DNA of 24,671 nucleotides from a virus: IMG/VR virus record IMGVR_UViG_3300030098_001573, positions 1-24,671 of that record; one strand, written 5' to 3'. A program made the translations under genes and the position numbers. Numbering within the stretch: the first letter of the stretch is position 1; every line of letters begins with the position of its first letter. This document shows positions 4,452-24,671 of this stretch, piece by piece. The notes under the pieces were generated by a model. That model had not been told where the DNA came from and ran no database searches. It worked only from the letters and a program-made list of their open reading frames with translations.

Positions 4452-4542
4452 AACAAACGGAAACGGCAAAAGAAAAATGGCCCCGAAAAAGACCAAGAAA
4501 AACAAACGATCTATGACAACAAAAAGAAAAATGAGTCGCTGA
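4438..4542 (+). CDS. 34-residue highly basic peptide
   Basis: A short peptide, MAKARTNGNG followed by a Lys/Arg-dominated tail (KRKMAPKKTKKNKRSMTTKR). About half the residues are basic, so it should be an unstructured nucleic-acid binder. GGGAG at 4426-4430 stands 7 bases before the ATG. The gene overlaps the end of the CPFA protein by 14 bases in a different frame, and the terminase small subunit starts 8 bases after it. The combination of ribosome binding site, position and composition matching other basic proteins here supports it; at this size the call remains moderate. Confidence 0.55.
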   Translation: MAKARTNGNGKRKMAPKKTKKNKRSMTTKRKMSR

Positions 4543-4549
4543 GTTAGGC

Positions 4550-5044
4550 ATGGAAAGACGCATACCCGAATCATTTGATCTGACTGTTAACCAGCGTAAG
4601 TTTCTCGAAGCTCTTTCGATAATCGGAACTATCTCTGGTGCAGCAAAGGCTGCTGGTGTCACAGACCGGCAGCATTACCGTTGGATTAAAGAAGAAAGCG
4701 ATTACCCACAGGCTTTCAGAGAAGCACGGGTACGCGCTGCCGATGAAATACTAGAAACATGTAGAGAGGTAGGCATACGGGACAGGAATGTCCCTATGCT
4801 TATCCATCTTTCTAGGGGCTACTTCCCAGAAATGTTTGGTACTAATCGGCACGAATTCTCTGGCCCCGCAGGTGGGGCAATAGAGATGTCGAACACTTCT
4901 AAGAAAACAACAGATCAACTTATGGAGCGGCTGCGTGACCTCCAACAAAAACACACAACAACTGCATCCCTTGGTGACACCTCCATTTGTGAACTGTCCG
5001 CTGACGGGGTGGCCGATACCGAAGGAAGCGAGAGCGAACTGTGA
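4550..5044 (+). CDS. terS: Terminase small subunit
   Basis: A 164-residue protein. Residues about 14-50 (NQRKFLEALSIIGTISGAAK, then AAGVTDRQHYRWIKE) form the N-terminal helix-turn-helix typical of small terminases. It is followed by a helical segment (YPQAFREARVRAADEIL) for oligomerisation and a polar, probably flexible C-terminus. The small subunit recognises phage DNA and hands it to the large subunit, which lies directly downstream. The start is ATG 4550 after GTTAGGC, a weak ribosome binding site; the nearest upstream gene ends at 4542. The last 110 bases overlap the large subunit in another frame. Family membership is clear from motif and context, while its DNA site is unknown. Confidence 0.8.
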   Translation: MERRIPESFDLTVNQRKFLEALSIIGTISGAAKAAGVTDRQHYRWIKEESDYPQAFREARVRAADEILETCREVGIRDRNVPMLIHLSRGYFPEMFGTNRHEFSGPAGGAIEMSNTSKKTTDQLMERLRDLQQKHTTTASLGDTSICELSADGVADTEGSESEL

Positions 5045-6770: not shown

Positions 6771-6798
6771 TGTGGTTTTTTCTCCGGAAGGGTGGATG

Positions 6799-7122
6799 AT
6801 GTTTGATAAAGAAGAAAACCAAGATTATCTAATCACATCTGGCGAGGTAGACGAAAACAGCAATGTGCCGGGTATGCTAGAGCTTGCAATCGAATATTTC
6901 CAAAAGGAAGACCCCGAGTCTACGGCAATGGGATACCTACAATCGGGGAAAGTTGGCGAAGAACCTTGGGCGGTGATCATGGCCGCAGACCCAGAAGCAC
7001 TTTTAAGACTTGCTATTGAGATATTGCAAGAACATTGCCCAGAGGTTTCAATAACAATGATTGATTCGCCCGACGTAGTAGACGAAGATTTTGACATAGA
7101 AGAACTTCTTGGAGACGATTAA
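6799..7122 (+). CDS. Small acidic hypothetical protein
   Basis: A 107-residue very acidic protein starting MFDKEENQDYLITSG, with helical segments (VPGMLELAIEYFQ and PEALLRLAIEILQEHCP) and an acidic end (DVVDEDFDIEELLGDD). GGAAGGG at 6786-6792 favours ATG 6799, or ATG 6796 three bases earlier. GTG 6772, with GGAGGG at 6761-6766, is an alternative that would add nine residues. The frame stays open upstream, back into the terminase gene, but those extra residues are not needed. It lies between the large terminase and a Gly/Met-rich protein and could be a packaging or portal accessory factor, purely by position. Family not recognised. Confidence 0.65.
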   Translation: MFDKEENQDYLITSGEVDENSNVPGMLELAIEYFQKEDPESTAMGYLQSGKVGEEPWAVIMAADPEALLRLAIEILQEHCPEVSITMIDSPDVVDEDFDIEELLGDD

Positions 7123-7535
7123 TGAATAATCCTTACATGGCAATGGCTGGTGCTGGCGGATTGCCTAACCAAATAAACTTAGGCATGACTGGTGTTTTTG
7201 AAAACGCTCCAATGTTTGGCGGCATGGGCGCAATGGGCAGCCAAATGCAACAGCCTATGTTTGGCGATTCTTCAATGAACAGAAGTCCATTGGGCGGCAT
7301 GGGTCAAGAGCGTTCAGGCGAATACATGCCGATTGAAGGCCAGCCGGGTTACTTCACCAATCCTGATGGGCATCGTTACAAGAAAAAGGGGCCACACTAC
7401 ATACCTGCTGACCCAGTTGGCCCAAACTATTACCAACAACCACGGCCACCTCAAAGACTTCCCGAATGGCTTGAATATTCCAATCCGTTGCACATGGTAA
7501 ACCCATTCCGGCTGTTGCCCGGAATATTGGGTTGA
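7122..7535 (+). CDS. Gly/Met-rich hypothetical structural protein
   Basis: A 137-residue protein. The N-terminal half is low complexity, rich in Gly, Met, Asn and Gln (MFGGMGAMGSQMQQPMFG), and is followed by an ordered-looking segment with GEYMPIEGQPGYFTNPDG and RYKKKGPHYIPADP. The C-terminus is Pro/Tyr-rich and ends WLEYSNPLHMVNPFRLLPG. It is probably a flexible linker or short structural protein near the portal. Its ATG overlaps the TAA of the previous gene, and only 7 bases separate it from the portal gene. No family is recognised; methionine-rich tracts of this kind are rare in virion proteins. Confidence 0.65.
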   Translation: MNNPYMAMAGAGGLPNQINLGMTGVFENAPMFGGMGAMGSQMQQPMFGDSSMNRSPLGGMGQERSGEYMPIEGQPGYFTNPDGHRYKKKGPHYIPADPVGPNYYQQPRPPQRLPEWLEYSNPLHMVNPFRLLPGILG

Positions 7536-7542
7536 TTTAAAT

Positions 7543-9285
7543 ATGCTAAAAGTTACCCCAGACAATCTTTATCTCGAAATCCAGTCCGCCGAAACTCTGC
7601 GTGACACATATCTCGAATCCTTCGAGGATATCGTTGACAGGTTTACGGGGGAGTCGTACCAAGACGGGCACGGGATCTCTATCCCCGAAAACCACGTTTA
7701 CGAGTACCTCAGTCTCACGGTCCCTAAGTTGATCTACGACAACCCGCGTGTGCATGTTTCTACCAGACGGCCTGTAACGCAACGTGGTGTTGCCGAGGCT
7801 ATGGAGCATGGTATCAACAGGTGGATCAGAGATTCAAGGTTTAGAGATGTTCTTGAGCGTGTTGCTTACGACATGCTTATTGCTTACGGGGTAATACTAA
7901 CTTCAGAAGCTCCGCAGCCCGGTTATTCGCCAGCAGATGCAAACGCGCCGCATTGGCCTACTTGCTACAGGATTGCACCGCAGCGGTTCTTCATGGACCC
8001 GATTGCCGGAAGTTTGTCTGACGCTAGGTTTGCTGGACACAAATGGGTTCGTGACAAAGAAGACTTGATCGAAGAGGCTGAAAACGATAATACTTGGAAC
8101 AAAGAAGTAATTGAGTCTTTGTCAGAAAACCACGGTCTTGACGAGTACGGCAGGGGTACCGAAGACGTGCCAGATAGGCACGAAATAGTCGGATACGAAG
8201 TTTGGGTTCCAGAAATTGGTATGCCAAACTACAATAATGAAGAATCTACATTTAACGGAACCATTTACACCATTGGTGTTTCTGGGCCGGGTGAAGATGG
8301 AAAAAAGCGCAGCGATTTCATTAGAGAGCCAAGGAACTTCTATGGCCCTAAGCACGGCCCTTATAGCGTATTTGGTGTCTACAGCGTTCCTGAACGCCCT
8401 TACCCATTATCTCCAATTGTCGCAACGCTCGGACAAATGGATGACCTGAACGCGCATGTTCAGTCCGCAACTTCTTCGGCAGCACAATACAAGCGGCTTG
8501 TGTTTGTGGACGCAAGAAATAAGAAACTGGTTCAAGACATTAAGAGCCAGCCAGATAACTATGTGGTTCCGGTGGAGGGTTTGGCTGGTGACAGTATTGT
8601 GCCTGCGGAATTTGGCGGCATTACCCGACAGCAAATCGAATACATTTCGATGGCTAGAGAACGCCTTGACCGCAACAGTGGAGTGGGCGAAGCGCAGCGT
8701 GGCATTGCTACAGGCGAAGCTACGGCTACAGAAGTTGCAGTTGCTGAGTCAGCCGGTAGTCTCCGGTTTGCTTACATCAAACGTCGGTTTCAAGAGGCGG
8801 CCAGACGCACTATCGAAAACGCCGCTTGGTACATGTATTACGACAATAGAGTAGTGTTCCCGCTTGGACCCAAGGCTGCGGAAGCTCTTGGTATGCAAGA
8901 ACCTTTCTTTGTAGGCGGCATTCCCGAGCAGATTACTGGTGCGAAGTTTACCGATGTAGAGTTGGAAATTGACACCTACTCAATGGAGCGCGCTAACGAA
9001 GTACTCCTTCAACGTAGGGCAATGGAATGCTACAACATGGTAATGCAGTCGGCACAGTTGATGGTCAACACTCCATATGTAGACTGGTCTGCGATGCTGT
9101 CTAAGCTTGGCGATGCTATGAACATACCTGAGCTTGGCGAAATGATTAACCAAGAACAGCTTATGCAAATGATACAGGCCCAGCAGCAGCAGCAGCAGCA
9201 GGAGCAGGCTGTAGCACAAATGCAGGCGCAGGCATCAGCGGCACAGTCAAACGCGCAGGCGCAACAAATGCAGAGGAGTGAATAA
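7543..9285 (+). CDS. Portal (head-tail connector) protein
   Basis: A 580-residue protein between terminase and scaffold. The N-terminal region (DNLYLEIQSAETLRDTYLES and following) and the segment with RYLE-type aromatic residues lead to a central domain. The stretch GVGEAQRGIATGEATATEVA at about residues 384-403 is the conserved 'G...AqRG...tATEV' box of podovirus-type portals and precedes the long helix (KRRFQEAARRTIENA). The C-terminus is a Gln-rich helix with a run of seven CAG codons (9181-9201). The dodecameric portal forms the DNA channel at one vertex of the capsid. The ATG at 7543 has a weak ribosome binding site. Gene order and motif together make this strong. Confidence 0.87.
   Translation: MLKVTPDNLYLEIQSAETLRDTYLESFEDIVDRFTGESYQDGHGISIPENHVYEYLSLTVPKLIYDNPRVHVSTRRPVTQRGVAEAMEHGINRWIRDSRFRDVLERVAYDMLIAYGVILTSEAPQPGYSPADANAPHWPTCYRIAPQRFFMDPIAGSLSDARFAGHKWVRDKEDLIEEAENDNTWNKEVIESLSENHGLDEYGRGTEDVPDRHEIVGYEVWVPEIGMPNYNNEESTFNGTIYTIGVSGPGEDGKKRSDFIREPRNFYGPKHGPYSVFGVYSVPERPYPLSPIVATLGQMDDLNAHVQSATSSAAQYKRLVFVDARNKKLVQDIKSQPDNYVVPVEGLAGDSIVPAEFGGITRQQIEYISMARERLDRNSGVGEAQRGIATGEATATEVAVAESAGSLRFAYIKRRFQEAARRTIENAAWYMYYDNRVVFPLGPKAAEALGMQEPFFVGGIPEQITGAKFTDVELEIDTYSMERANEVLLQRRAMECYNMVMQSAQLMVNTPYVDWSAMLSKLGDAMNIPELGEMINQEQLMQMIQAQQQQQQQEQAVAQMQAQASAAQSNAQAQQMQRSE
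9181..9201 (+). repeat. (CAG)7 run coding polyglutamine
   Basis: Seven perfect CAG codons near the end of the portal gene encode seven glutamines, within a longer Gln/Ala-rich tail. Such runs can change length by slippage without changing frame. The neighbouring residues are also Gln-rich, so this may reflect composition rather than a mobile repeat. Confidence 0.8.
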
Positions 9286-9587
9286 TGCCACTGTACGCAT
9301 TCGTGGACCAAGAAGGTAATGAGCATGAGTTGTTTTACAACTCGTCTGACGCTCCAAGTATTGGAAGCACGGTCGAGGGAGATGGAAAGGTTCTCACTAG
9401 AGTTGCATCATTCATACTCGACACAGCAGGAATTGAAAGAAAGACACACAAATACCCCTATGTGAGCAGAGCGTTGTCTCGCAATCTTGAGGGGGTAGGT
9501 AGTTATGACGGTCAGGGAAGGCCGATCATTAAAAGCCAAAGCCACGAAAGGGACGTGGCTGCAAGACATGGAATGATTAAGGAATAG
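9285..9587 (+). CDS. FmdB-like protein lacking zinc-binding cysteines
   Basis: A 100-residue protein beginning MPLYAFVDQEGNEHELFYNS and continuing to VLTRVAS. The pattern matches the small FmdB zinc-ribbon family, whose members begin 'MP.Yey.C..CghefE...' and have a second CP.CG pair. Here the first pair is replaced by D-Q-E-G and the second by S-T-V-E-G, so no cysteine remains and zinc binding is unlikely. The rest (KTHKYPYVSRALSRNLEGVG) is a phage-specific extension. The gene overlaps the portal stop (TAATG) and lies 2 bases before the scaffold gene. Its place in the head operon suggests an assembly role, but that is inference. Confidence 0.65.
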   Translation: MPLYAFVDQEGNEHELFYNSSDAPSIGSTVEGDGKVLTRVASFILDTAGIERKTHKYPYVSRALSRNLEGVGSYDGQGRPIIKSQSHERDVAARHGMIKE

Positions 9588-9589
9588 AT

Positions 9590-10615
9590 ATGAGCGAAGA
9601 AATCACTGACATTCAGCAAGAAACTAACCCCGTAGAAGAGTCTGCGGCTAACCCGATCTCAGAGCGTGTCACTGTTGACAACGAGATGAGTGACGATGCC
9701 ATGCTAGATAAAATTATGGGAAGTTCGGAGCCTGAAGGCAGTGTTGCAGAGGCCGAAGTAGAAAGCGTACAGCTTGAAACGGAGGTTGCGGCTGACACAG
9801 AAGTTGCGACGGACGCTGTAACACCCAGCGAACCCGGCGAAGACTATCACCGTGCTATGGCCGCGCTACAACGTGACGGTACACCAAGAGATGTGCTGGA
9901 CTACATGTATGAGCAAGATCCTGACAGCTTTGTAAGCTGGGGACTTAAGCGTGAAAAGGTTCAAAGAGACGGCGACAAGTTTGGAGATGAATACTCTAAG
10001 TTGAAGTCACGACTTGAGCAACTTGAAGCAGGTGGAGAACAACCCACTGCGGACAGCACGCAAGAGCAACCCCCGGAACAGGCTGTAGCAGATCCCGCAA
10101 GAACACCTGTAGCCAACCAAACTTTTGAAAAGACTAAGGCTGACATGTCAGAAATCTTCGGCGAAGAAGCCGCAGAAGTTTTGATGCAGCCAATAGCTCA
10201 ACTGTCGCAATCTCTTGCTGCGGCAATTCAACAGATTCAGACGCTAACAGGCCATGCTGAAGCTAGAGAATTGTCGGTAGCAAAAGAATCCCTGCGGGAA
10301 CGGTTTCCGCAGTTGGATGCCGAGGATGCGTATCAGTCAGTCGTTGACCGCATGAAAACGCTTTACAAAAGCGGCGATTACGACAACATCAGATCACTGA
10401 TGACTGATGCGGCAAGAATTGTGTTTGCTGACGAAGCACCGCCTAGAGACACTGCGGCTGAAAATAAAGCCAAGTCTTTGGGTCAGCCTACTGTTGCTAC
10501 CAAGACTAAGACTGCAACAAAGACGTTTACGCACGAAGATCGTGAAGACGCGGCTTTGGACGCAATCTTTGATGGCGATGGCTTGGATGGTGCTAAGAAG
10601 GCTTACACTATTTAA
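9590..10615 (+). CDS. Putative capsid scaffolding protein
   Basis: A 341-residue protein with a very acidic N-terminus (residues 1-85, rich in E, D, T and S), a helical Gln/Glu-rich middle, and a tail of a basic Lys/Thr tract (TKTKTATKTFT) and a final acidic segment (DALDAIFDGDGLD-like). It is probably the internal scaffold that directs capsid assembly and is then removed. Size, composition and position directly before the major capsid gene are the usual hallmarks; no sequence family is diagnostic. It starts at ATG 9590, two bases after the FmdB-like gene. The helix at 218-260 could mediate dimerisation. Confidence 0.72.
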   Translation: MSEEITDIQQETNPVEESAANPISERVTVDNEMSDDAMLDKIMGSSEPEGSVAEAEVESVQLETEVAADTEVATDAVTPSEPGEDYHRAMAALQRDGTPRDVLDYMYEQDPDSFVSWGLKREKVQRDGDKFGDEYSKLKSRLEQLEAGGEQPTADSTQEQPPEQAVADPARTPVANQTFEKTKADMSEIFGEEAAEVLMQPIAQLSQSLAAAIQQIQTLTGHAEARELSVAKESLRERFPQLDAEDAYQSVVDRMKTLYKSGDYDNIRSLMTDAARIVFADEAPPRDTAAENKAKSLGQPTVATKTKTATKTFTHEDREDAALDAIFDGDGLDGAKKAYTI

Positions 10616-10637
10616 ACCATGAGAAAGAGGAATAGCT

Positions 10638-11816
10638 ATGGGAACTGCCCTTGCTAATTTTAACGACTTCATGGCTGCCACCGGCCCTCGCTACCTGACC
10701 TCTGCTGAAGATGTCATTAACGAGGCCGTAAAGAATACCTATGTTCTCTCACGATTCCTTCGTGGGCGTGGAATGGACAAGGTTATTCAGGGCGGCAAAA
10801 CGATTAACGATGTAGTCCTTCTGGATGAATCATCGACTTACAACCACTATCAGCCTAACGACACGTTTAGCTGGACTAACCCACAAGTCGTAGACACTCT
10901 TGAGATTGACTGGAAGTTCTCCGTCGATCACATGAGTTGGACCGATCAGGAAGTCGAGCTTAACATGGGCGAAGGTCTCTCCCGTGATGCTCAAAAGGGT
11001 GTCTACAAGAAGCTCAAGCGTATCAAAGAGATGCGTCTCTGGACTTCGATGCTCAACGGCATGGAAGACGATCTTTGGAAGGCTCCTAACGAAGCAGGAA
11101 TGGAAACCAATACGGGCAAGCTTCCGTACTCCATCCCAACCTTCATTCAGGAAAACGATGGTGGCCTCCCAGCCGGATTCTCAGGCACAGACCTTCAGGG
11201 TCTTGGCGTAGCTGCTAACAGCAACTACCAGAATCAGGTTTCAACTTACGACGCGAATGACCCTGACGGAATCATCGGCGGCGGTACTGGAAGCAGCGAT
11301 TCGCTGGTTGCAGCCTTCGACGAGATGTTCCTGAAGTGTCAGTTCATCCCACCGGCAACGAAGCAAGAATACTTCGAGAGCGACATGCTCAGTCGGCAGA
11401 TGATCTTCGCCAGTCGTGCTGGTGTCAATCAGTACAAGCGCGCTCTCCGAGCAAGCAATGACTCACTGATCTCGGCACAGGACCCTGCATACAACAACCC
11501 ACAGTATAGCGGCATCGACGTTATCTACTGTGCGGCACTGGACACTGCTGCTATCTACAGCAACAACTACGGTAGCGGTAGCCACACTGGGTTCCATGCA
11601 GAAGACAGCGCATCTGCTGCCTTTACTGGTTCACGTTACTACTGGGTGAATGCTAACTACATGACCCCTGTTTATCACTCCCGTCGCTACTTCGAGAAGC
11701 ACGATCCAATGAGGCACCCCAACCAGCCATTCACAAGCGTTCAGCCTGTCGATTGCTGGTGGAACCTCTTCTGCAACTCGCGTAAGCGTCAGGGTATCGT
11801 CCGTCCATCTGCTTGA
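10638..11816 (+). CDS. Major capsid protein
   Basis: A 392-residue protein directly after the scaffold, with a good AGAGGAAT ribosome binding site before ATG 10638. Its size and composition (Trp/Tyr-rich, with segments such as GKTINDVVLLDESSTYNHYQ and SYPSGTDL-like loops) fit an HK97-fold capsid protein of a short-tailed phage. I recognise no single catalytic motif, so the call rests mainly on gene order and length. It should form the icosahedral head shell and be the most abundant late protein. Codon use favours C-ending codons more than the neighbours, as expected for a highly expressed gene. Confidence 0.83.
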   Translation: MGTALANFNDFMAATGPRYLTSAEDVINEAVKNTYVLSRFLRGRGMDKVIQGGKTINDVVLLDESSTYNHYQPNDTFSWTNPQVVDTLEIDWKFSVDHMSWTDQEVELNMGEGLSRDAQKGVYKKLKRIKEMRLWTSMLNGMEDDLWKAPNEAGMETNTGKLPYSIPTFIQENDGGLPAGFSGTDLQGLGVAANSNYQNQVSTYDANDPDGIIGGGTGSSDSLVAAFDEMFLKCQFIPPATKQEYFESDMLSRQMIFASRAGVNQYKRALRASNDSLISAQDPAYNNPQYSGIDVIYCAALDTAAIYSNNYGSGSHTGFHAEDSASAAFTGSRYYWVNANYMTPVYHSRRYFEKHDPMRHPNQPFTSVQPVDCWWNLFCNSRKRQGIVRPSA

Positions 11817-11858
11817 TAAGACGGTTTCTATAACACTCTTTGACTGAGGAGAAATACG

Positions 11859-12353
11859 ATGTCAACTGGAGTACCTATTGGCGGACCTTTGGGACTGGAA
11901 ATTCCAGTAGTAGAGTTCCGTGCAATCAACCGAACAGATGCTACTTTGACGGTTGGTGATGTTTTGATGATTGATATGGGTGGAACGGCAGGCGAAGTTT
12001 CTGGAACAGACAACACTGTTGCAGGCGCATCAGATGCCGGGCTTTCTAATGTTGTTGCACCTACAGACAATCTTGCTGTAGGCGTTGGAATCCTGTGTGT
12101 TGCTCTTGAGGCTACTACAGACAACTCAACAGGACGATTCCTTTTGCAAGGAAGAACAACTGCAAAAACGAGCGAAGCAATTAACAATCTTGGTGCTGCT
12201 CTTACTGTAGACAACAGTTCTACGGCTTTGAGTGACACTGGTGGTGTTAATCAGGGGTTCTTTGCCTACGCTCTTGAGGAAACTTCTGGTGCTGGAACAG
12301 CTCAGGTTCTCTTCAACGGTTTTGGTTGGGGCAATCAGGCTTCGTCTGACTGA
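11859..12353 (+). CDS. Probable capsid decoration/stabilising protein
   Basis: A 164-residue protein rich in Gly, Thr, Val and Ala, with a beta-strand pattern (VEFRAINRTDATLTVGDVLM, and later FLLQGRTTAKTSEAINNLG). This is the composition of decoration proteins that sit on the outer capsid surface. The position immediately after the major capsid gene supports that role. A strong AGGAGA ribosome binding site stands before ATG 11859, matching high-level expression. A strong RNA hairpin follows 20 bp after the stop. No family motif is diagnostic; a minor head protein is an alternative. Confidence 0.65.
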   Translation: MSTGVPIGGPLGLEIPVVEFRAINRTDATLTVGDVLMIDMGGTAGEVSGTDNTVAGASDAGLSNVVAPTDNLAVGVGILCVALEATTDNSTGRFLLQGRTTAKTSEAINNLGAALTVDNSSTALSDTGGVNQGFFAYALEETSGAGTAQVLFNGFGWGNQASSD

Positions 12354-13357: not shown

Positions 13358-14071
13358 ATGCTTACTCTGACTAATCTTAAATCGCACGTTACACATGCCC
13401 TCGGCGGTACACCTGCTTCGGAAATTACTTCGACAGACATAGTGAACCAAGCTGGCAGGCATATGTTTTCTTATGCTTGGAAGTTTAGGTCTAGGCCGTC
13501 TGTAGATATCAGCACGGTATCTTCTCAGTCGTATGTGGATTTGCCATCCGACGTTGGCGAAATCATCACCATACGGATGAAAAACGGTCTTAACGACAGC
13601 ATTGAATTGACATCATACGACAAGCTTCTGTTGATTCGCAATGGCAGCCTGTCTACAGGACGGCAGTTTCATGCAGCAATATCCTATTATGATTCGACTG
13701 GTGTCACAGACACAACGATTGCAATTACTCCGCGACTTGAGCTTGCCCCGACTCCAACGGGCGTGGATCAAATCTCAATCTTTTATAGGTCTAAGTGGAC
13801 AGGGCTGTCGAATGACAGCGATATTGCACCGATACCGGACTGGGCAGAAACCCTTTTGATTTCTTATGTCAGGGCGTTTGCACAAGGGTATGAAGAAGAA
13901 AACTTTATGCAGCGTGTAGCAGAAATAGATCAATCTCCACTGTACCACCGCACAGCAGTTCAAGACGGAATGCTGTTGCCTGAGTACGGTCCAATAGAAG
14001 GCGGACACATTAGTTCGTACCGCACAAATCAACGACTGCCATTTGACACTATTGCAGATCCATCTTCATGA
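13358..14071 (+). CDS. Putative head-tail adaptor (tail tubular A-like)
   Basis: A 237-residue protein. The N-terminus (MLTLTNLKSHVTHALGGTPA) leads to a helical segment with NQAGRHMFSYAWKFRSRPS, which is common in podovirus adaptor proteins, then a beta-rich region and a C-terminal helix (TLLISYVRAFAQGYEEENF). This helix, 'I.yv.a.aq..Eee....', is typical of adaptors that extend the portal toward the tail nozzle. The next large gene is the nozzle candidate, which fits the usual order. It starts one base after the previous stop. The assignment is from architecture and position; sequence similarity to named adaptors would need a profile search. Confidence 0.65.
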   Translation: MLTLTNLKSHVTHALGGTPASEITSTDIVNQAGRHMFSYAWKFRSRPSVDISTVSSQSYVDLPSDVGEIITIRMKNGLNDSIELTSYDKLLLIRNGSLSTGRQFHAAISYYDSTGVTDTTIAITPRLELAPTPTGVDQISIFYRSKWTGLSNDSDIAPIPDWAETLLISYVRAFAQGYEEENFMQRVAEIDQSPLYHRTAVQDGMLLPEYGPIEGGHISSYRTNQRLPFDTIADPSS

Positions 14072-14460
14072 ACGTGAAATACAAAAATTACGAAACTGTA
14101 AAAGGGGTATTTCAGCCAAACACGGGTGGCACGCCTACGCAAATGCTTGGCACCACGCTTGCATCTAAAAGCAACTTCGACAGGCGAAGTGCTAAAGTTC
14201 GTCAGTTTTATCAAGCAATGATTCACAGTGACAAAAATGGAGTAAACACATACAACGTACAGCTTTCAGTGATTTCAGGCTCAACAGAATACAGGCTTGA
14301 AAGCCTTGACGTAGCCCCCGGAGAAAGCCACGTCTTTAACGATCAAGACTACGGCGTTGATTTAGCTCCAGATGAATATGTCAGGTTTGCGTGGTTGTCT
14401 AGTTCAACCCATTCCAGTGACAAGCTAACGTTTTTTCTTAGAACAAGGGATATTGTTTGA
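14068..14460 (+). CDS. Hypothetical protein before tail nozzle gene
   Basis: A 130-residue protein starting MNVKYKNYETVKGVFQPNTG. Segments NTYNVQLSVISGSTEYRLES and DEYVRFAWLSSSTHSS have the alternating pattern of beta strands. No signal peptide or membrane segment is present. It is read in ATGA overlap with the adaptor candidate (14068-14071), and its TGA overlaps the next ATG, so the three are coupled. It may be a minor tail or connector component. No family is recognised. Confidence 0.65.
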   Translation: MNVKYKNYETVKGVFQPNTGGTPTQMLGTTLASKSNFDRRSAKVRQFYQAMIHSDKNGVNTYNVQLSVISGSTEYRLESLDVAPGESHVFNDQDYGVDLAPDEYVRFAWLSSSTHSSDKLTFFLRTRDIV

Positions 14461-17400
14461 TGGCTAAAAATCCGTCTAAAGACATAGAGCTTCCATTTCC
14501 GATCCAAGGAATACAAGAAGTGGGGCCGCACGCCAGTCAGCCTGCGATGTCTACGCATGGTTCTAAAAATGTTGTTCCGTTCGATACTGAAGAGGGACGT
14601 ATGCGTGGCGGCAGACGTCGTGGCATTGATGTTGTTTCTAACGACACTGGAGGCAAAGTACAGCTTCTGGACGAGATGAAGGTTCCTAAAGCAAACATAA
14701 CAGGGTACACAGGGGGGATGATTGCATACAACGGAGAATCAACAACTTACGACGGTGTTTCGCAATCTGTAACATCAAATCTATCTAAGATTTTGCGCGA
14801 CCCAAATCAAGATGGAGATATAACAGATAGCCGTGAACTTCAAGGACCTATAAGTTACATAGGTCCAAGCAATCTGCCAGATAACCCAACTTTGCCTATA
14901 GACATGTATGAGTCTACGAGCATTTGGCCCACGCTATCTTCTTGGGACGGTGTATACACGCCGATGAAATCTACTGTTTTAACTAATTCTGACCTTGAAT
15001 CAAACAATTTGTCTTCTAAATACAAAACTGATGGCGAAACAACAGCTTTGCCAATTGTGACTGATGGCAGCGCATTGAACAGCCTAGATTCTAAAACTGG
15101 AAATATACAAAAAGGCATTTGGTGTTGCAAAGAGGTTGATGGCAAAACAGCTACGGTTTATCCAAGGCCGCCATTTGACACAGACGGTTCTACATCTAAC
15201 CCCGGCAAAAATACTCATTATCACCCTGTTGCATCTGAGCTAGGATATTACGTTGACGAAAGCGGTTTAGCTGGCAAACACGTTAGCAGCGTTTTGTTGC
15301 CTGCCGCTGATTTTACAGAAGAACCTTACAACAGTGGCGTAGAAAACAATAACAACTATGCGATGACTTGTTCAATAAAAACTCCTGCTGCAACACCTAC
15401 AGCGTATGGTGCATTGGCGGGAGCTTTGAATAATACTGTTAATGATTTTATTGCTCGCGGCTACGAATTAATTCCTGATGTGGGTACCGGAGCTATTACA
15501 AGCGCAGTGGTGGGTGCTACTACTTATAACGCACAAATAACCAACGGAACATTTGTGTTAGCACCGTCTGGTGGCGGCGGTACTGTAATGAGCGGGGATA
15601 TGGAGGCAGGCTCAAAGCTTTTGTCGAAACGTTCTATTGGTATACAAAGCGGAGACGGTTTGTTTTCTGCTGAAAGATTTTATGGATTTGTTTTCAAACT
15701 AAAAGCAAGTATTAGTGTCGCTGATAAATCGGTAGATGTATCGGCAGAAAATCCTAGTGTAGACGACCTACTTTTTGTAGGTTTTCACGATTCGCCAAAT
15801 GTACAACCCGGTGGATCTGAAAGCTTTGTAACAAACAAACCGAAATTAGTTATTGCAAAAATTTCTAACAAGAAAAGCACTAACGACACTCCCTTGGCTG
15901 ATCAAGAATCTTTGTTTTTGACTGACATATACGAAGCAACCGGCACACAGCTTCCTGAATTTGAACATGGCTCTTGGTACGAGCTTGCCGTAAGACACAT
16001 AGATGGCAAAATTTCTGTTTCCATAGGAGGAACAGACGTTATTCCATTTAAGCAAGGTGATGGAAATAGTGTAAACAGCATTGCAATATCCGATTACATG
16101 GGAATAGATGACAATGCAGAAAGCATATCTTTGTCTAGGGCCAGAAGTGGTCTGGTTTATTACAGCACTAGAATGGCAAAGCCCGGCTCTGGAAACCATC
16201 TTGTTGGCTCTGTATCTACTAATGTAAGCGACTACGAACTGACGCAAAAGTTTGTTAGCCAAGGCTCCAGTGGTGTATTTGATGGGTCTATTTTAAGTGC
16301 AAGTATAGATGAAATAACAGGTGTTGTGGATGGCAAGCTGGTTGGAACAATACGCGGATCAGTATCTCCCGGTGTTGTGACGGCCTCTGCTCCATGCACA
16401 TGGACTCTTAGCGAAAACAGCGCACTGGACAACCAAATTTATACTGACAGCCCATTGCAGGGTCTTACACGCTACGTCACAAGTGATGCGGAGCCTTCTG
16501 CGGCAGCACAAGACGGCAAATACACTCACAGATACACAAGTAGCGGCACTCGAACTAGCATAAATAATATTGATTTCAGTGGTGTTGGTGGAGACTGGGT
16601 GAGAGAGTGGTCGCCAGCATATTTCCACAATGTTACTTGGCGATCTGCTGACGCTGACGCAACTGCCGATTCAACAAAGTTGACAATAGCTGTTTCTGGC
16701 GGAGTTCCACAAATATCCGGCGATGCAAGCGAAAGCTATGTTGGTCTAACAGGTGGAGAAAATGCAAACCTAAATTTGTCTGAGACTGTTTCTAGGGTTG
16801 GCGGAACAGTTATGTTTGACAGATACTATTTAGTTGATGGAAATAAGTACCTGTTAATTGACACGCCTAAGCGAGAATTATTCGATTGGTCAGCAATGAC
16901 CAGTAAGGACGATGGGGCTACTTACCTGATACCGGGTGGTAAAAACGGCGAAAACCCAGAAAATCCTAGATGTAGGCTTATAACCTCATGGCTGGGCCGA
17001 ATAGTTATGGCTGGGAAAAACGATGAGCCAAACAACTGGTTTATGTCTGCTATTGCTTCTACAGCAGATTACAACGACAACCCAGATACATCGGTGGGCG
17101 CAAACGACTGGGATTTGTCTGCAACGGGTACAGACGGCTTGGGTGCGATTGCGGGAAACAGTTCAAACTTGGCTGAAATAGGCGACCCAATAACAAGTCT
17201 ATTCGCATACCGTGATACCGCTCTTGTGTTCGGATGCACTGGCTCTATTTTTATGCTAACTAATGATCCGGGGCCTGTAGAAAACAACGCACAAATACTT
17301 ACTTTAAGCAAAGATATTGGAATTGTTTCACCTGATGCTTGGTGCTACGGTCCAAACAGGTCTCTTTATTTCTTTGGCCAAAACGGCTTGTACCGAATGG

Positions 17401-18095
17401 CACCAAACGAATTCAACGTGGACCAAAGCAACCGCTTGTCTTCTGGCAGGCTTGACAAAACTTTTTCTTCTATAGATGCTTCTAGGTACGACGTTTCTTT
17501 GCATTACGATTACCACACTTATGGCGTCCATATTTTCCTACACAATAAAAACACGCCAAGTACGCTTATGGAAAGCCATTATTACTACGATGAGCGTAGT
17601 AACAGCCTGTGGGAAATGGAATACCCGTCTGCGCTTGGACCTTCGGCAGCTTTGTCTTACAACCATGTTGACCCAGACAAGCGACGTGTTTTGCTTGGTG
17701 GATACGACGGTGTAATTAGGTATTTTAGTGATTTGGCGCATCACGACACGTCGCAATCTGGATCAACAGCTATTGACAGTTTTATTTGGATTGGGCCAAT
17801 AGCCATGGACGGAGTTACAGAATCTAAGCTTATGCGAATAGCTGCTGTTTTAGATGAGCAATCAGCTAATTTAGATTACGCAGTTTATGTTGGAGACACA
17901 GCAGAACAGGCAAAAAACTCTGAGGCTGTAATTACAGGCACATGGACAAAGGGCAGAAACAATCATAGCTATACAAGAGCCAGAGGCCAAAGCATATTTG
18001 TCAAGCTTTCTAGCAGCTTGCTTGCAGTGCCTTGGGCAATTGAAACAATCACAGCAAGAATAGCGGTAGCTGGCCGCTCAAGAGATAGAGGATAA
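14460..18095 (+). CDS. Large tail nozzle-type protein with LamG-like insert
   Basis: A 1211-residue virion protein, much longer than T7 gp12 or P22 gp10 (about 800 and 470 residues), which it may correspond to. Residues about 380-570 contain a segment with GSWYELAVRHIDGKISVSIG at about 505-524, the 'gtWyhva...dG.i.vyvdG' pattern of concanavalin/LamG jelly-roll domains. Residues about 790-1100 contain repeated strand-turn units with FFGQNGLYRMAPNEF and WEMEYPSALGPSAAL, typical of beta-propeller nozzle cores. It probably closes the tail channel and may bind sugars through the insert. TTG 14457 and ATG 14460 both exist; the ATG, in TGATG overlap, is preferred. The exact fold is inferred. Confidence 0.7.
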   Translation: MAKNPSKDIELPFPIQGIQEVGPHASQPAMSTHGSKNVVPFDTEEGRMRGGRRRGIDVVSNDTGGKVQLLDEMKVPKANITGYTGGMIAYNGESTTYDGVSQSVTSNLSKILRDPNQDGDITDSRELQGPISYIGPSNLPDNPTLPIDMYESTSIWPTLSSWDGVYTPMKSTVLTNSDLESNNLSSKYKTDGETTALPIVTDGSALNSLDSKTGNIQKGIWCCKEVDGKTATVYPRPPFDTDGSTSNPGKNTHYHPVASELGYYVDESGLAGKHVSSVLLPAADFTEEPYNSGVENNNNYAMTCSIKTPAATPTAYGALAGALNNTVNDFIARGYELIPDVGTGAITSAVVGATTYNAQITNGTFVLAPSGGGGTVMSGDMEAGSKLLSKRSIGIQSGDGLFSAERFYGFVFKLKASISVADKSVDVSAENPSVDDLLFVGFHDSPNVQPGGSESFVTNKPKLVIAKISNKKSTNDTPLADQESLFLTDIYEATGTQLPEFEHGSWYELAVRHIDGKISVSIGGTDVIPFKQGDGNSVNSIAISDYMGIDDNAESISLSRARSGLVYYSTRMAKPGSGNHLVGSVSTNVSDYELTQKFVSQGSSGVFDGSILSASIDEITGVVDGKLVGTIRGSVSPGVVTASAPCTWTLSENSALDNQIYTDSPLQGLTRYVTSDAEPSAAAQDGKYTHRYTSSGTRTSINNIDFSGVGGDWVREWSPAYFHNVTWRSADADATADSTKLTIAVSGGVPQISGDASESYVGLTGGENANLNLSETVSRVGGTVMFDRYYLVDGNKYLLIDTPKRELFDWSAMTSKDDGATYLIPGGKNGENPENPRCRLITSWLGRIVMAGKNDEPNNWFMSAIASTADYNDNPDTSVGANDWDLSATGTDGLGAIAGNSSNLAEIGDPITSLFAYRDTALVFGCTGSIFMLTNDPGPVENNAQILTLSKDIGIVSPDAWCYGPNRSLYFFGQNGLYRMAPNEFNVDQSNRLSSGRLDKTFSSIDASRYDVSLHYDYHTYGVHIFLHNKNTPSTLMESHYYYDERSNSLWEMEYPSALGPSAALSYNHVDPDKRRVLLGGYDGVIRYFSDLAHHDTSQSGSTAIDSFIWIGPIAMDGVTESKLMRIAAVLDEQSANLDYAVYVGDTAEQAKNSEAVITGTWTKGRNNHSYTRARGQSIFVKLSSSLLAVPWAIETITARIAVAGRSRDRG

Positions 18096-18097
18096 AG

Positions 18098-19051
18098 ATG
18101 GGTTTTTTAGACTTCCTTTTTGGTGGCGAAGAAGAAACGCCAAACCCAATGCGTCAGTGGGGCATTCAGGGGCCGCAGGCTACTTGGAATTATTACGAGT
18201 CTGCTATAGCTGATTCTCGTAGAGTAATGCGAGATTATTGGAGCATATGGACACAGCAAATGGATGCTGTAAAAAATATGTATTCAGGTTCTATGGACTC
18301 TATCGAGTCTAATTACAACGCTGCTCGCGCCAACATAGCTTTGCAAAGAAGTGATTATAACGATTGGGAAAGGCAGCAGCGTCAGGATCTTAATCGGCAG
18401 CGAGACAAGCAAATAAAAGACATCAGAGATCAGGAAAAAACTGGTGCTGCAAACTTGACGCGAAAATCTTATGCTTCTGGTTTAATAGGTTCTACTGCTG
18501 CTAAACAATGGCAAGCTGGTTTAGAAGACAGGGCAAACGAGGCTGTTGCGGAAGTAGAAGAAAACAGGGCAAATATGGCAAATGACTTGTCTGCAAGACG
18601 GGTGCAGGCAGAGCGCGGTTTTACGGCTGCTGAAGCAGATTTAGCTGCAAGGCGAGCGGCTATGGAACAAGCTTCTATGCAATCGCAAATGTCTAGCCTT
18701 ATTGACGTACTTGGTCGTGCGCCTATTGCAGCAGACCCCGGTATTGATTTGAAGCTTGCACAAGCGCAAGGCTTTTACGGCACGCCTTGGGAAAGTTACA
18801 CCAACCCAATCGTAACTGAAACTCCGGGTTTAATTACTGACACCTTGTTGCCAGCTGCTACAGGCGGATTAGTAGGCGGTTTTACTGGCGGATTTGGTTC
18901 AGCGTTTGGCAGCGGCTTCGGCGACCAAGCATCTAGTTGGTTTGGAAACTTGTTTGGCGGAAGCGGCGTAAGTGTTAATCCCATGGCTGGTACTGTTACT
19001 GGCGGCGGCGGTACATTTAACTTAGGCAATTTACTAAACCCTATGGGTTAA
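18098..19051 (+). CDS. Internal virion (ejection-type) protein
   Basis: A 317-residue protein. It starts MGFLDFLFGGEEETPNPMRQ and has long charged helices at about residues 25-205 (for example QRQDLNRQRDKQIKDIRDQE, and AAEADLAARRAAMEQASMQS). It ends in a Gly/Phe-rich hydrophobic region (GGLVGGFTGGFGSAFGSGFG). Coiled coil plus a membrane-seeking glycine tail is the layout of T7 gp14-like proteins that enter the cell envelope during DNA delivery. AGAGGATAAAG gives a good ribosome binding site for ATG 18098. It directly follows the nozzle candidate and precedes two longer proteins of similar type. The role is inferred from layout and order. Confidence 0.62.
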   Translation: MGFLDFLFGGEEETPNPMRQWGIQGPQATWNYYESAIADSRRVMRDYWSIWTQQMDAVKNMYSGSMDSIESNYNAARANIALQRSDYNDWERQQRQDLNRQRDKQIKDIRDQEKTGAANLTRKSYASGLIGSTAAKQWQAGLEDRANEAVAEVEENRANMANDLSARRVQAERGFTAAEADLAARRAAMEQASMQSQMSSLIDVLGRAPIAADPGIDLKLAQAQGFYGTPWESYTNPIVTETPGLITDTLLPAATGGLVGGFTGGFGSAFGSGFGDQASSWFGNLFGGSGVSVNPMAGTVTGGGGTFNLGNLLNPMG

Positions 19052-19067: not shown

Positions 19068-21116
19068 ATGGCATACCCTAACCCTCCATTGAATGTTGCT
19101 GGCGTGTACCAACAAGGCCGAACAATACGTCAAACTAACATTGACGCGGCTGCAACAATCGAACAGATTAATCGCAGAAACGATAGGCAGTACGCATTTG
19201 AACAAACTCGTTTGACTAGAATTGGCATGAATATCTTTGGTGAAACCATGAAGAAGATGTCCGAGGACATTTCTTATGCCACTGGTGGATATTTGCTAGA
19301 TCAAAACATACGCATGAAGCAGCTTGATGTAGCTGCTGCTGTGCAAGAAAGATTGTCAAACGAAGCTGTGTCGGCAGGTGCCTTGATAAGCTTTGATCCC
19401 GGTCCAGACCCAGATCAAGCTGTAGCTGAAGTGCAAGAGATTGCTGACAACAGCAAGCGGATTAGTGGCATACCGGCTGAGCGCGAAGGCACTACTTATG
19501 CTGGCCCCCCTGTTCCTGTTACTGGAGAAGAAGACGGTGCGGAAGCTGAACCACCTGTGCCAACAAATGAGGACCGCCGTACTGAATACGTTACTAAACG
19601 GGAAGACAAGGACATTCCTGTTGTTGCAGCAGGTCAAGATGCAAGCAAAAACATTGATGCTGTCAGGCGAAAGGGTGCGGAAAGGGCTGCACGTCCTAGT
19701 CAGCCGCGCAGGCCAAAGCACACTAGAATAGGCACTACAGAGATTTTTGCAAACCCTACGACTGGCGGCATGTTTGCAAGAACAGCAAAGGGTCTAGTTG
19801 TACCTATCAACGATTCGACTTTCCGCAATCTAATAGGCTTGCAGCAGTCAAACGCAGAAATTCACATGTTCAATCAGATAGCAGCTTACAAAGACGCTGA
19901 AGCTGGTTGGTTAGATTCAATTACTAACGAGCAACTAGCTGCGAATAAAGCTTTGGCTAACGCTATGATCGACTCGCACTTGAATGAGGGAGTTATTGAC
20001 GAAAGCCTCGCTGAATCTTTGCGGGAGGCCGCTAATTCTGGTGCAGACCCCGAGAGCATTCTTCGTATGATGAATGAGTACGCTAGAAGAGGACCGGCTG
20101 CTGGCGACAATTACCGTGCAAAAGAATTGGCTGACGTTAGGGCTGGTTATGAAAGAGCCGCTAGAGACGCTTCTAGAACGAAAACTGCCGAAATAAAAGG
20201 TCTGCAAGATGCTTACGATGTCATTATTGCAAGCAGCGGCGCAGAAACAATAGGCGACATAGGCCCAAGCGAACCAGTTCGTAGACAGCTTGACGCTTTG
20301 CAAAGGCAAATAGACGCAGCAAAGCACGAAAGAGACGAAAACAATTTGAAGGGAAAAATTTACGGCGATCTTTCTGCACATAAAACAAGACAGGCAAGAT
20401 CGTTGTCTGTACTTGAACCAGAAGCTTTGCAAGCTTTTTATGATTATTCTCTTCTTAACGCTGGAATTACGGGCAGCAACTTTGTGGAAAGAAGAGAAAA
20501 GTTTAGGAGTCTAGTAGAGTCAGATCCCACACAGGCCGCTCGGGTCGAAGCATCTTGGAAAACTTTGCTCAACCACTTTGGTTTAGTTCAAAACGAAGCA
20601 TCGGCAGTTCTCTTTGCCAATTTTACTGGGCAAGAAATTTCTAGAGAAGATGTTGCCGCAACATCTGCTAGTGGTTTTAGGACTCCACAAAATATGGCGG
20701 GTGGCAACATGATGAACTTGAGTTCACCTAGAGACGGTGTAATGTCGCAAGAGGAATTAGAGGTTCAGGAAAAGCAGATCGGTCAATACGTTAAAAACCT
20801 CGGCATAAACATAACTCGCGGCAACACGTTGGATTATTTTTTGTCTGACACAATAGAAAGTCCTTATCAAACAGAAATACAAGCTATTTCACGGGCTTTC
20901 AAACAAGGCGGATTTGAACAAGCTAAAACTGTTTACGAGTCATATAGTCAAAATGTAAGAGCCGACAATGGCGTACAGAAATTGATGGCTGTATTGAACC
21001 AAAATGCATTAACAAATACTCAAATTGACACCGATGAGATAATAAAAAAACGCGAGGCAAATAAAAGCAAACAAAAAGAAATTGAGTCGCGAATGCCGTC
21101 GTTTGGAGGGTCGTGA
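19068..21116 (+). CDS. Large coiled-coil internal virion protein
   Basis: A 682-residue protein with a mostly helical, charged sequence. Residues 20-60 are helical (AATIEQINRRNDRQYAFEQT), then comes a low-complexity Pro/Glu/Ala linker at about 140-210 and helical domains to the end. There is no signal peptide or membrane helix. Its composition fits the middle component of the ejection apparatus of short-tailed phages, packed in the head and delivered with DNA. The ribosome binding site before ATG 19068 is weak. Three bases separate its stop from the next start. No domain is recognised by eye. Confidence 0.6.
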   Translation: MAYPNPPLNVAGVYQQGRTIRQTNIDAAATIEQINRRNDRQYAFEQTRLTRIGMNIFGETMKKMSEDISYATGGYLLDQNIRMKQLDVAAAVQERLSNEAVSAGALISFDPGPDPDQAVAEVQEIADNSKRISGIPAEREGTTYAGPPVPVTGEEDGAEAEPPVPTNEDRRTEYVTKREDKDIPVVAAGQDASKNIDAVRRKGAERAARPSQPRRPKHTRIGTTEIFANPTTGGMFARTAKGLVVPINDSTFRNLIGLQQSNAEIHMFNQIAAYKDAEAGWLDSITNEQLAANKALANAMIDSHLNEGVIDESLAESLREAANSGADPESILRMMNEYARRGPAAGDNYRAKELADVRAGYERAARDASRTKTAEIKGLQDAYDVIIASSGAETIGDIGPSEPVRRQLDALQRQIDAAKHERDENNLKGKIYGDLSAHKTRQARSLSVLEPEALQAFYDYSLLNAGITGSNFVERREKFRSLVESDPTQAARVEASWKTLLNHFGLVQNEASAVLFANFTGQEISREDVAATSASGFRTPQNMAGGNMMNLSSPRDGVMSQEELEVQEKQIGQYVKNLGINITRGNTLDYFLSDTIESPYQTEIQAISRAFKQGGFEQAKTVYESYSQNVRADNGVQKLMAVLNQNALTNTQIDTDEIIKKREANKSKQKEIESRMPSFGGS

Positions 21117-21119: not shown

Positions 21120-24100
21120 ATGACATCAATTCCAAATGTCAATGTAGATTTTGATTTTGGTGCAGAGCAGCGTCGTATGCGTCGTAGCCCTGACCGCAGT
21201 GTTGCTCCTGCAATTATTAACGGTAAATACGAATACGACCCAACTGTATGGAATAACGCTACTGAAGCTGTTCGTGCAAAAATGGAGTCGCCTGCGGATT
21301 ACAGAACACGACTGGAAGCAGAAGCTTACATTGAACGATTGAAGAAAACGCAGTTTCCAGATCAATACAGGCAGCAGCAAGCTGAATTGCAACAACTTGC
21401 AGATGCAAATGAATACATAACGCAACTAAAATTAGATGCTGAGGGACGCGATAGTTTCATGGCTAACGTCCAAGACCTTGGGACTAGCATTTGGGATTTT
21501 TTAGGTGTACAAGCCCCGTCGCTTGCTATGCGCATGGTTGCTTCGCCAGATGACGTAGAGTTCCAAGAAGCCATTGACGAATTGCAGTCAGGTGAAATTT
21601 ATCGTTCTTCGTTTGTAGAAACCGCTCGCAATGTACTTGGCGGCGTAGGCATAGGCGGCGGCATGACCGGCGGTTCTGGGATTACAAGAACACCAGAAGA
21701 GTTGGCTAATAGATTTAACAACCCAGAGGGCTGGGGTAGAACTGTTGGGCAAGCTGCTGGGTCTGCTTTGCTTTCTGCTGCTGCAATAATTGAACCAACG
21801 CCATTTGGCGAAATAGCAGTTCTTGGTGCATTTGGCGTTATGGGAGTGGGGTCTGGGTTTGAGAAGTACGACGAGATTGTAAGAAAAAACAATATTGACT
21901 CGGCTACTAGAGACAGGATACTTGTTGGATTAGGTTACGCGGCAGCAGAAGTCGGTGCAGAATACATTGGTTTGGGCATTGCCAAATCAGGAGCGAAGCG
22001 GTTAGGCATTGCGATGGCTTCCAAAACCGCTAGGGCAGTTGGTGCCGAGGTAATTGAGAAAGGCGTTGCTGCTGGAGTTAAGCGTTGGGGCAGCTCAATC
22101 GGAGTCAGTCTCTTTACTGGCGGTATATCCGAGGGCATGGAAGAAGCTCTTACGCAAGTTGCACAGAACCACATTGACATTCTTGCTGACCCCGGCCAGA
22201 ACTGGAGCCGTGCAGACGCGCTTGAAGGTACGGTAGATGCGTTTGTGATGGGTGCTGTTGCAGGTGGCATGGTTGTTGGTCCGGCTATTTACTCCAAGAG
22301 TCGCACTGAGGCTAAGAAATACGCTGCCTTGGGCGAAGCTTTGCTTGAAGACCGTGACGTTGCAATAGCAAAACAGGCGGAGGCGGTAGCAGAAGAAGCA
22401 GAAGCCGATGTTGTAGAACAGCAGCCGGAAGTTCAGCCTTCTGCAATCGTTGTCAAGGACGCTGATGGTGAGGTCAGGGAGGCTTATCCATACGACGAAA
22501 CAGACGAGCTTAGTCTTGAGGCGGCAGAAACACAAGCTGACGGATTGTTGCAGCAGCTTGGGCCAGCGGGCCAGAATTGGACAACAGAAAAAGCAACACC
22601 AGAACAATACGCTGAGATTACTGGTGCAACTGCGGTCGCTGAAGAAACAGCGCAAGTTGTGGAAGAGGCTGTGCCAGAACAAGCTGAAGCTCCTGTGGTT
22701 GACCAGCCTGTAGCAGAAGAGCCTGTTGTTGAACTAGACCCTGTGCAGCAACAGCAGCAACAGGATCGGCGGGCAGAAGTACAAATTGATACTGCCGTGC
22801 GTGAAGCCAGAGGTCTTGACCCGTTGGCTGAAGGCGAGCAGCCTATGGTCAGAATTATTCCTGAAGAGGAAGAAACTAACCAGCCTAAGATTTTGACCAA
22901 GCTTCGAGAAGTTGCCGCGAAGACCTCTGAAGGCACTGGCGTGCCCTTGCGTATCGTGCAGGTTGACACTCAGGCTGGCGAGCAAGCTGCTCCGTTTGAC
23001 GGACTGTACTACGGTAACACCATTTATGTTGATGCCAACCGTGTTAGAGAAGGCGAAACGGCAGGCAGCGACAAGGTGTTTACTCGGATACTTGCACATG
23101 AATTGTTGCACGCAACCAAGGATGTAAACCCTGAGTTGTACGAGCATATGGTCAAACGTCTTGGCAAGAAAAAGCTTGGCAGGATGGCAGTTAAATATGC
23201 TGAAAGACTAAGCAACGGCGAATACGCCAGAATGAATCCAGAGGCCCAGATTGAAGAAGCTCTGGCACAAGCGTTTGAAAGCGATCTCGCAGCCATTGCC
23301 AATGGCACGTTCAGTGGTGACAGGACTCTTGCTGGCAAGATCGTAGACTTTGTTCGACAGACCGCTGACCGCTTGGGCTTGCGTGGCGGGTTCAAGAAAG
23401 ACCTTGACAGTATTGTTAGGCAACTGGCTGAAGGCAAGTCACTACAAGATCTTAAGCTTGCAAGCATGAAGCCCGGCAAGCCGCAGGCACAGGCACAGGC
23501 ACAGGCAGAAACACGCCCCGAAACTACGGATCAGGCGGGGCCAATGCTTTCCCCCGCTGATAATCAGGTTACATCTTTGTCTGCTAAGAGTGTTCAAAAT
23601 AAAGTTGAAGCAGAGTCTGGTGTTGTATTTGACGGTTTCGTTTCAAGTGCTTTGTTCGACCAAGACATTGGCCTTCGATTTTCTCCTTCTCCAGTATTGC
23701 CAAAAGCTAGAATACCAAGAAATGTTTCGTTAACTGATTATGCTGGGCAAGAAGCGTTTGTATATTTTTCTGACCGCATGAAAGTTGGAAATTACCCCGG
23801 GCTAGATCCAAAATCAGGAATTAACATTCCACTTCAAGGCGGCCCCGGCTATCCATTTATTATTGGAAACAAGAACAAGGCTGTTTGGGCATTTACTGCT
23901 CATAAAGCAATGGTAACCTCTTGGCTAAACAGGGCTAATCAGGTTGGTGGATTGGGTGCAGTAGCTTTGATGGCAAGGGGCAATGTTCGGGGCAACCCGA
24001 CATTCTTAAAAGCGTATTTTGAAGAGCTTAACTGGGCAATTGAATCAGGAAAGCTAGAGGGCGGCACAACAAGAGCGTTGGAAGTTCTAAACGATTTACG

Positions 24101-24671
24101 AAGTAAAGCTATTGCCAGCAAGGAATTTCAGGTTAAAGTTCGCGGCGATGAGTTGTGGAAAGTTTCGTGGGAAACACTATCGCAAGCTGAAGCAGCGATG
24201 GAAGCGACTACGTTTGATGTCCGTAGCTCAAAAATTTTTGGGTGGTCGCCCGGAAAAAAGAGTTACAACAAAGGGTCAAAAATTGGCGCTGATGCTTTGC
24301 TTAAAGAAGGCTTTCCTGATTTGACCAAAATGGTTGATGCTATGGAAGAGCCAAAGTTTAAAAATTTAAATTATGGCGACATAGTTGCATTAATAAAAGC
24401 AAAGCCCGGGCAATCAGAACCATCTTCCGCGTCCAGCTTGGGTGTGCAAGATCATCTTAGCTATCCGTTTGTAGTTGAGGGCAACGGCATTGGATGGTTG
24501 GACACCCCAATTAATGTTTTGAAGTATTTGAAAACCGAAAAACCTGCAAAAGACGCGCTCACGTATGCCCGCACATCAATGGCTCCAATTCGTTTGTCAC
24601 CGGCTGAAGACTACGGCTTTGCTGACGTAGAGCCATTGCCTGTCAAGACACTGACTTCTAAGCTACAGCCT
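21120..24671 (+). CDS. Giant ejection/polyvalent protein with metallopeptidase motif, partial
   Basis: The frame opens at ATG 21120 and stays open for 1184 codons to the window edge. Residues about 210-290 and 350-400 have Gly/Ala-rich, membrane-like helices (AFVMGAVAGGMVVGPAIYS). A Glu/Gln/Pro/Val-rich linker spans about 420-560. Residues 660-664 are HELLH in RILAHELLHATKD, the HExxH zinc-peptidase signature, with a likely third ligand in IEEALAQAF (E712 or E713). A C-terminal globular segment follows (GGPGYPFIIGNKNKAVWAF and after). Such multi-domain polyvalent proteins are packed in phage heads and ejected with DNA; a protease could act on the host envelope or on cellular proteins. The function is inferred. 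Confidence 0.75.
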   Translation, partial: MTSIPNVNVDFDFGAEQRRMRRSPDRSVAPAIINGKYEYDPTVWNNATEAVRAKMESPADYRTRLEAEAYIERLKKTQFPDQYRQQQAELQQLADANEYITQLKLDAEGRDSFMANVQDLGTSIWDFLGVQAPSLAMRMVASPDDVEFQEAIDELQSGEIYRSSFVETARNVLGGVGIGGGMTGGSGITRTPEELANRFNNPEGWGRTVGQAAGSALLSAAAIIEPTPFGEIAVLGAFGVMGVGSGFEKYDEIVRKNNIDSATRDRILVGLGYAAAEVGAEYIGLGIAKSGAKRLGIAMASKTARAVGAEVIEKGVAAGVKRWGSSIGVSLFTGGISEGMEEALTQVAQNHIDILADPGQNWSRADALEGTVDAFVMGAVAGGMVVGPAIYSKSRTEAKKYAALGEALLEDRDVAIAKQAEAVAEEAEADVVEQQPEVQPSAIVVKDADGEVREAYPYDETDELSLEAAETQADGLLQQLGPAGQNWTTEKATPEQYAEITGATAVAEETAQVVEEAVPEQAEAPVVDQPVAEEPVVELDPVQQQQQQDRRAEVQIDTAVREARGLDPLAEGEQPMVRIIPEEEETNQPKILTKLREVAAKTSEGTGVPLRIVQVDTQAGEQAAPFDGLYYGNTIYVDANRVREGETAGSDKVFTRILAHELLHATKDVNPELYEHMVKRLGKKKLGRMAVKYAERLSNGEYARMNPEAQIEEALAQAFESDLAAIANGTFSGDRTLAGKIVDFVRQTADRLGLRGGFKKDLDSIVRQLAEGKSLQDLKLASMKPGKPQAQAQAQAETRPETTDQAGPMLSPADNQVTSLSAKSVQNKVEAESGVVFDGFVSSALFDQDIGLRFSPSPVLPKARIPRNVSLTDYAGQEAFVYFSDRMKVGNYPGLDPKSGINIPLQGGPGYPFIIGNKNKAVWAFTAHKAMVTSWLNRANQVGGLGAVALMARGNVRGNPTFLKAYFEELNWAIESGKLEGGTTRALEVLNDLRSKAIASKEFQVKVRGDELWKVSWETLSQAEAAMEATTFDVRSSKIFGWSPGKKSYNKGSKIGADALLKEGFPDLTKMVDAMEEPKFKNLNYGDIVALIKAKPGQSEPSSASSLGVQDHLSYPFVVEGNGIGWLDTPINVLKYLKTEKPAKDALTYARTSMAPIRLSPAEDYGFADVEPLPVKTLTSKLQP
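23484..23507 (+). repeat. (CAGGCA)4 tandem repeat coding Gln-Ala
   Basis: Four perfect copies of CAGGCA encode QAQAQAQA between the metallopeptidase region and the next domain of the giant ejection-type protein. It probably marks a flexible linker. Copy number could vary without changing the frame. Confidence 0.75.

Follow-up and report, generated by a model that had tools for sequence, protein, structure and literature searches.

A probable ejection-type polyvalent protein with a zincin-like metallopeptidase domain in a short-tailed phage

The window analyzed here, the whole 24,671 bases of IMG/VR record IMGVR_UViG_3300030098_001573 and probably a fragment, ends within a giant gene that probably encodes an ejection-type polyvalent protein of a short-tailed phage with a zincin-like metallopeptidase domain. 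As a zincin-bearing ejection protein, it is a well-hidden further member of a class that has already been described, that of polyvalent proteins with zincin-like MPTase domains (Iyer et al., 2017; PMC5512222). The evidence comprises the position of the gene, a HExxH motif and downstream glutamate that are conserved among divergent homologs, and the profile relation of the domain to a second clade of giant phage proteins.

The giant open reading frame begins with an ATG 3 bases past the stop codon of the preceding gene and has no stop codon before the record ends (Table 1). It lies among the late virion genes, which run from terminase through portal, scaffold, capsid, and adaptor to a nozzle-type gene. 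Directly behind this 1212-aa gene lie two genes of 317 and 682 codons and then, third in the row, the giant gene with at least 1184, which is the layout of a gp14-gp15-gp16-like cluster. A comparable order was also identified in relatives, and the arrangement from portal to giant gene resembles those of phiKMV and N4. The giant gene occupies the slot of T7/phiKMV gp16 and of the N4 virion RNA polymerase (vRNAP), behind the genes for capsid, adaptor, and nozzle and those for two smaller internal proteins. No sequence homology to known gp15 or gp16 proteins was detected, and neither the giant protein nor the family of its 682-aa neighbor had a match in the PDB. An earlier note, made from the letters of the window, had described a giant ejected protein; the ejection-protein slot is supported by these observations, while the full size of the protein is extrapolated from relatives, as the window holds only 1184 residues. 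Upstream of the small terminase gene, a gene at positions 3918–4451 matched phrog_28122 (E 7e-15), a family with no assigned function.

Table 1. Positions in the window of the giant gene, its segments, and neighboring virion genes.
Feature	Positions	Strand	Basis or remark
Portal (T7 gp8-type head-tail connector)	7543–9285	+	phrog_332, E 1.1e-22
Major capsid protein, query for finding relatives	10638–11816	+	phrog_9953, E 2e-13
Tail adaptor (SU10_adaptor)	13358–14071	+	Pfam PF24175, E 2.2e-9
1212-aa protein, presumed tail nozzle	14457–18095	+	Kept in 12 of 17 related records; gene order
317-aa coiled-coil protein, position of T7 gp14 / phiKMV ORF35	18098–19051	+	Gene order
682-aa protein, position of T7 gp15 / phiKMV gp36	19068–21116	+	Gene order; homologs
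5' 1184 codons of the probable giant ejection-type (polyvalent) protein gene	21120–24671	+	Truncated at record end; relatives have a longer frame
N-terminal Gly/Ala-rich helical module, residues ~1–400	21120–22319	+	Presumed translocation/membrane module; homology, hydropathy
Acidic E/Q/P/A-rich linker, residues ~401–600, probably disordered	22320–22919	+	Composition in 40-residue blocks
Zincin-like metallopeptidase domain, residues 601–780	22920–23459	+	Alignments; hhalign to second clade; AlphaFold2 element order
HELLH, putative zinc-binding/catalytic motif (H660, E661, H664), residues 660–664	23097–23111	+	Conservation in homologs
E713, probable third zinc ligand, within EEALAQAF (712–719)	23256–23258	+	Invariant in five-sequence alignment; on later long predicted helix
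Second low-complexity linker, residues ~781–827	23460–23600	+	Sequence
C-terminal segment, residues 831–1184, incomplete, unassigned	23610–24671	+	Absent from retrieved relatives

The N-terminal module of the protein matched the profile of phrog_30335 (E 2.8e-5), and its similarity to the beginning of phrog_2206, a virion RNA polymerase family, was not significant (E 0.054). The highest 19-residue Kyte-Doolittle mean was 1.72, at residues 372–390, and the sequence is elsewhere Gly/Ala-rich. The membrane-like helices proposed previously are thus weak, while the disordered linkers proposed with them are represented by the acidic stretch that precedes the zincin-like domain.

The HELLH motif of the giant protein is the only HExxH across the 21 putative genes of the window, and it is followed by a glutamate on a later predicted helix, as in zincins. 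With the window protein as the query, no relatives were recovered from IMG/VR, annotated phages, or GTDB genomes; relatives were reached only via the conserved nozzle-type and capsid genes. The capsid query identified 39 related contigs, and comparison of the window protein with 17 records of capsid-related contigs yielded four matches (L047, L048, L049, and L050), in all of which the giant gene likewise follows two smaller genes that lie behind the nozzle-type gene. Overall identity of these homologs to the window protein ranges from 19 to 40%. The closest, L047, is 40% identical over residues 34–436 and 41% identical over residues 429–790, with its gene ending at the contig edge, while L048, L049, and L050 are 19–23% identical across the full alignment. 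The L050 gene, with 2,872 codons, is the sole complete relative with the zincin domain. H660, E661, H664, and E713 are common to all five aligned sequences, as are N670, L673, Y674, A716, and A718. The pairing of HELLH with a downstream EEALAQAF segment, to which the earlier note had drawn attention, is therefore borne out by homologs. From this conservation we infer that H660, H664, and E713 bind zinc and that E661 serves in catalysis, presumably by activating water.

In a second clade (L053, L054, L055, and L065), whose giants have more than 2,700 residues, the comparable position is occupied by HHExxH or YHExxH. An hhalign comparison between the clades gave a P of 2.3e-5 and a score of 40.8; the best of 150 column shuffles that kept the HExxH block scored 24.1. 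A score so far above those of motif-keeping shuffles indicates that the likeness reaches beyond the HExxH motif. The alignment of the E713 equivalent in this remote clade is uncertain. Together with the conserved motif and the third-ligand glutamate, this profile relation supports the zinc-peptidase interpretation offered earlier, in the form of a zincin-type domain. The L054 giant has a second HExxH (VFAHEMMHAA) near residue 1863, in a region not common to L053.

AlphaFold2 models built with five and nine sequences had mean pLDDT values of 57 and 66, with values of ~70–83 for the HExxH helix and subsequent helices. At this modest confidence, the predicted order of elements is two to three strands, the HExxH helix, a long helix, and the E713 helix (107–127 of the model). 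The zincin fold has been described as an N-terminal helix, a three-stranded sheet, and two active-site helices (PMC5512222), and the modeled order and profile comparisons would fit such a fold. Foldseek searches with the two models returned no zincin and nothing significant. Likewise, no significant family match for the domain was found in Pfam, PHROG, NCBIfam, or the PDB, with curated peptidase families below the cut-off. Matches to the Peptidase_M91 effector and eCIS_core profiles were weak and non-significant (E 0.04–0.05) and were not taken as assignments. The top PDB profile matches (terpene synthases, tandem-repeat designs, and NCK-interacting protein) were dismissed as fortuitous helical similarity.

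The absence of a significant curated peptidase match, the low-confidence structural model, and the lack of a Foldseek match would be consistent with HELLH having arisen by chance within a structural, helical part of the protein. However, shuffling the composition of the giant protein produced an HExxH in 51 of 20,000 cases, an expectation of only 0.0026 per protein, while HELLH and E713 are invariant among homologs that are 19–40% identical and the second-clade profile match extends well past the motif. We therefore consider a chance origin very improbable.

HExxH was retained in every homologous sequence found, at identities down to ~20%, with a single exception. L056 (8718–9416, minus strand) and L067 (6001–6699), which derive from different metagenomes, share a degenerate GFEEAIH where close relatives have AHHEVMH, and the remainder of their domain is ~37% identical to that of L053. 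Decay of the motif in an otherwise conserved domain indicates that the metal site can be lost. This would be expected if the main function of the zincin fold lay in the structure or packaging of the giant protein, with proteolysis slight or absent, as is possible for N4 vRNAP, which is unprocessed when packaged and yet requires its MPTase region for encapsidation (PMC5512222). Collectively, the N4 protein and the degenerate branch suggest that catalysis may be dispensable. Yet retention of HExxH in all other homologs suggests selection on the metal site, and we regard a mainly structural role as somewhat unlikely.

Downstream of the zincin domain, homologs carry an ART-PolyVal domain (L049, E 2.4e-20; L047, E 8.6e-5, which is below the Pfam cut-off, the domain being truncated at the contig end). 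Homologs thus combine several disparate domains, while in the truncated window gene the zincin alone is assignable. The ADP-ribosyltransferase of the relatives lies at the place matching the C-terminal segment of the window protein, and that segment may, as the earlier note proposed, be another effector. Residues 831–1184 had no match in any collection searched or to the cargo modules of relatives; the part at window positions 23700–24300, with GGPGYPFIIGNKNKAVWAF, was matchless in every collection searched. The GGPGYPF...WAF stretch of the segment may resemble motifs of other giant phage proteins, a likeness that found no support in the searches. The last 700–1000 residues of giants L049, L050, and L053–L056 are conserved at ~21–53% mutual identity and have no Pfam match; this region may correspond to the helical C2 portion of N4 vRNAP.

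Other records encode different giants behind closely related capsids. The giant of L051 (native positions 3272–12352; capsid 93% identical to that of the window) combines a C5 methylase with a ParB-type domain and lacks HExxH, and that of L052 (native positions 377–11380; capsid 83% identical) carries an AAA_34/strawberry-notch helicase pair together with a possible N6 methylase. Neither giant has detectable similarity to the window giant, and hhalign of their N-terminal module against that of the window family gave an unconvincing P of 0.034 over 17 columns. Judged from these sequences, the ejection slot of L051 and L052 is apparently a case of whole-gene replacement. Across capsids that are 83–93% identical, unrelated giants carry a zincin with ART, a cytosine methylase with ParB, or a strawberry-notch helicase with a possible N6 methylase. 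ART-PolyVal, methylase, ParB, and helicase are module types listed for polyvalent proteins (PMC5512222). A speculative proposal, which we hold to be rather doubtful as a whole, is that the ejection slot acts as a cargo port in which a dedicated, previously unclassified zincin clade would release the cargo once it has been ejected; at least one branch of the clade would have become a pseudo-enzyme.

The presence of predicted effectors (ART-PolyVal, methylases) among the other modules of the slot, and the weak Peptidase_M91 effector and eCIS_core matches, which fell short of significance, are in line with an ejected effector protease that would cleave host defense or envelope proteins, as the earlier note suggested, or other host proteins. 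The class literature considers a host-directed role possible but places self-processing first (PMC5512222), and the zincin is retained beside differing cargos, which suits a service role. Attack on host proteins is, in our judgment, unlikely.

We rank self-processing first among the functions of the domain, followed by a structural or packaging role and then by host cleavage. By analogy with the class, self-cutting is the likeliest use of the zincin, with a probability that we place slightly short of even. The giant protein would be packaged and ejected and would be positioned like gp16 (PMC8954989) or vRNAP. From the N terminus onward, it would be built of a translocation module, a disordered linker, the zincin-like domain, and variable cargo, such that the zincin would lie between translocation module and cargo with acidic linkers separating them. 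In the head or after ejection, the zincin would then cut the giant polypeptide itself and release the downstream cargo; no cleavage site was evident in the giant protein. HExxH domains of phage ejection proteins are seen repeatedly, in N4 vRNAP, in phiKMV gp37, and in the present lineage, where the neighboring cargo varies. The natural comparisons offered by this lineage, between copies with an intact and a decayed motif and between giants with ART and methylase cargo, could separate self-processing, structure, and host attack.

The window protein shares with the class of Iyer et al. (2017; PMC5512222) an HExxH helix preceded by strands, a glutamate on a later helix, and its nature as a giant multidomain phage protein encoded near virion genes, with relatives that carry ART, methylase, ParB, and helicase modules. 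It differs in that its zincin has no significant curated-family match and is unassigned among the 12 described clades. Phage P1 DdrB is likewise a packaged polyvalent protein with an MPTase domain and is reportedly processed before packaging (PMC5512222). Like the genes of phiKMV gp37 and T7 gp16, the window gene comes third in a row of ejection-type genes behind the tail genes and is the largest of the three. It differs in that its product matched no solved ejection protein in sequence, and in that the gp16-like proteins listed in PMC8954989 have up to 1337 aa, against 2,872 in the complete relative identified here.

N4 vRNAP is a giant ejected protein, as presumed for the window protein, and both are encoded by the last gene of a capsid-to-ejection run; the C1 part of vRNAP is an HExxH domain (residues 2124–2375; PMC12633501). 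A C1 profile aligned over 11 phages matched the window family by hhalign with a P of 1.3e-4 and a probability of 54%, covering the strands and HExxH only. That P was reached by none of 200 full shuffles and by one of 200 shuffles that kept the motif block, and the N-terminal module, used as a negative control, gave a P of 0.5. The profile similarity of the window family to the N4 vRNAP MPTase clade is at most suggestive. Both proteins have an IYL/IYV strand followed by LIHELVHAS in N4 and LAHELLHAT in the window, and then a NEFMAW or EEALAQA segment. They differ in that no RNA polymerase module was recognized in the window or in the scanned relatives, and also in motif position, which is residue 660 in the window protein and residue 2228 in N4. 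With the N4-type domain profile, PDB entry 9sfn was recovered as well (E 7e-7), an internal virion protein of 1337 aa; the equally long phiKMV gp37 carries HEAVH at position 423. Together, N4 vRNAP, the 9sfn protein, and phiKMV gp37 show that HExxH domains recur in large ejection proteins.
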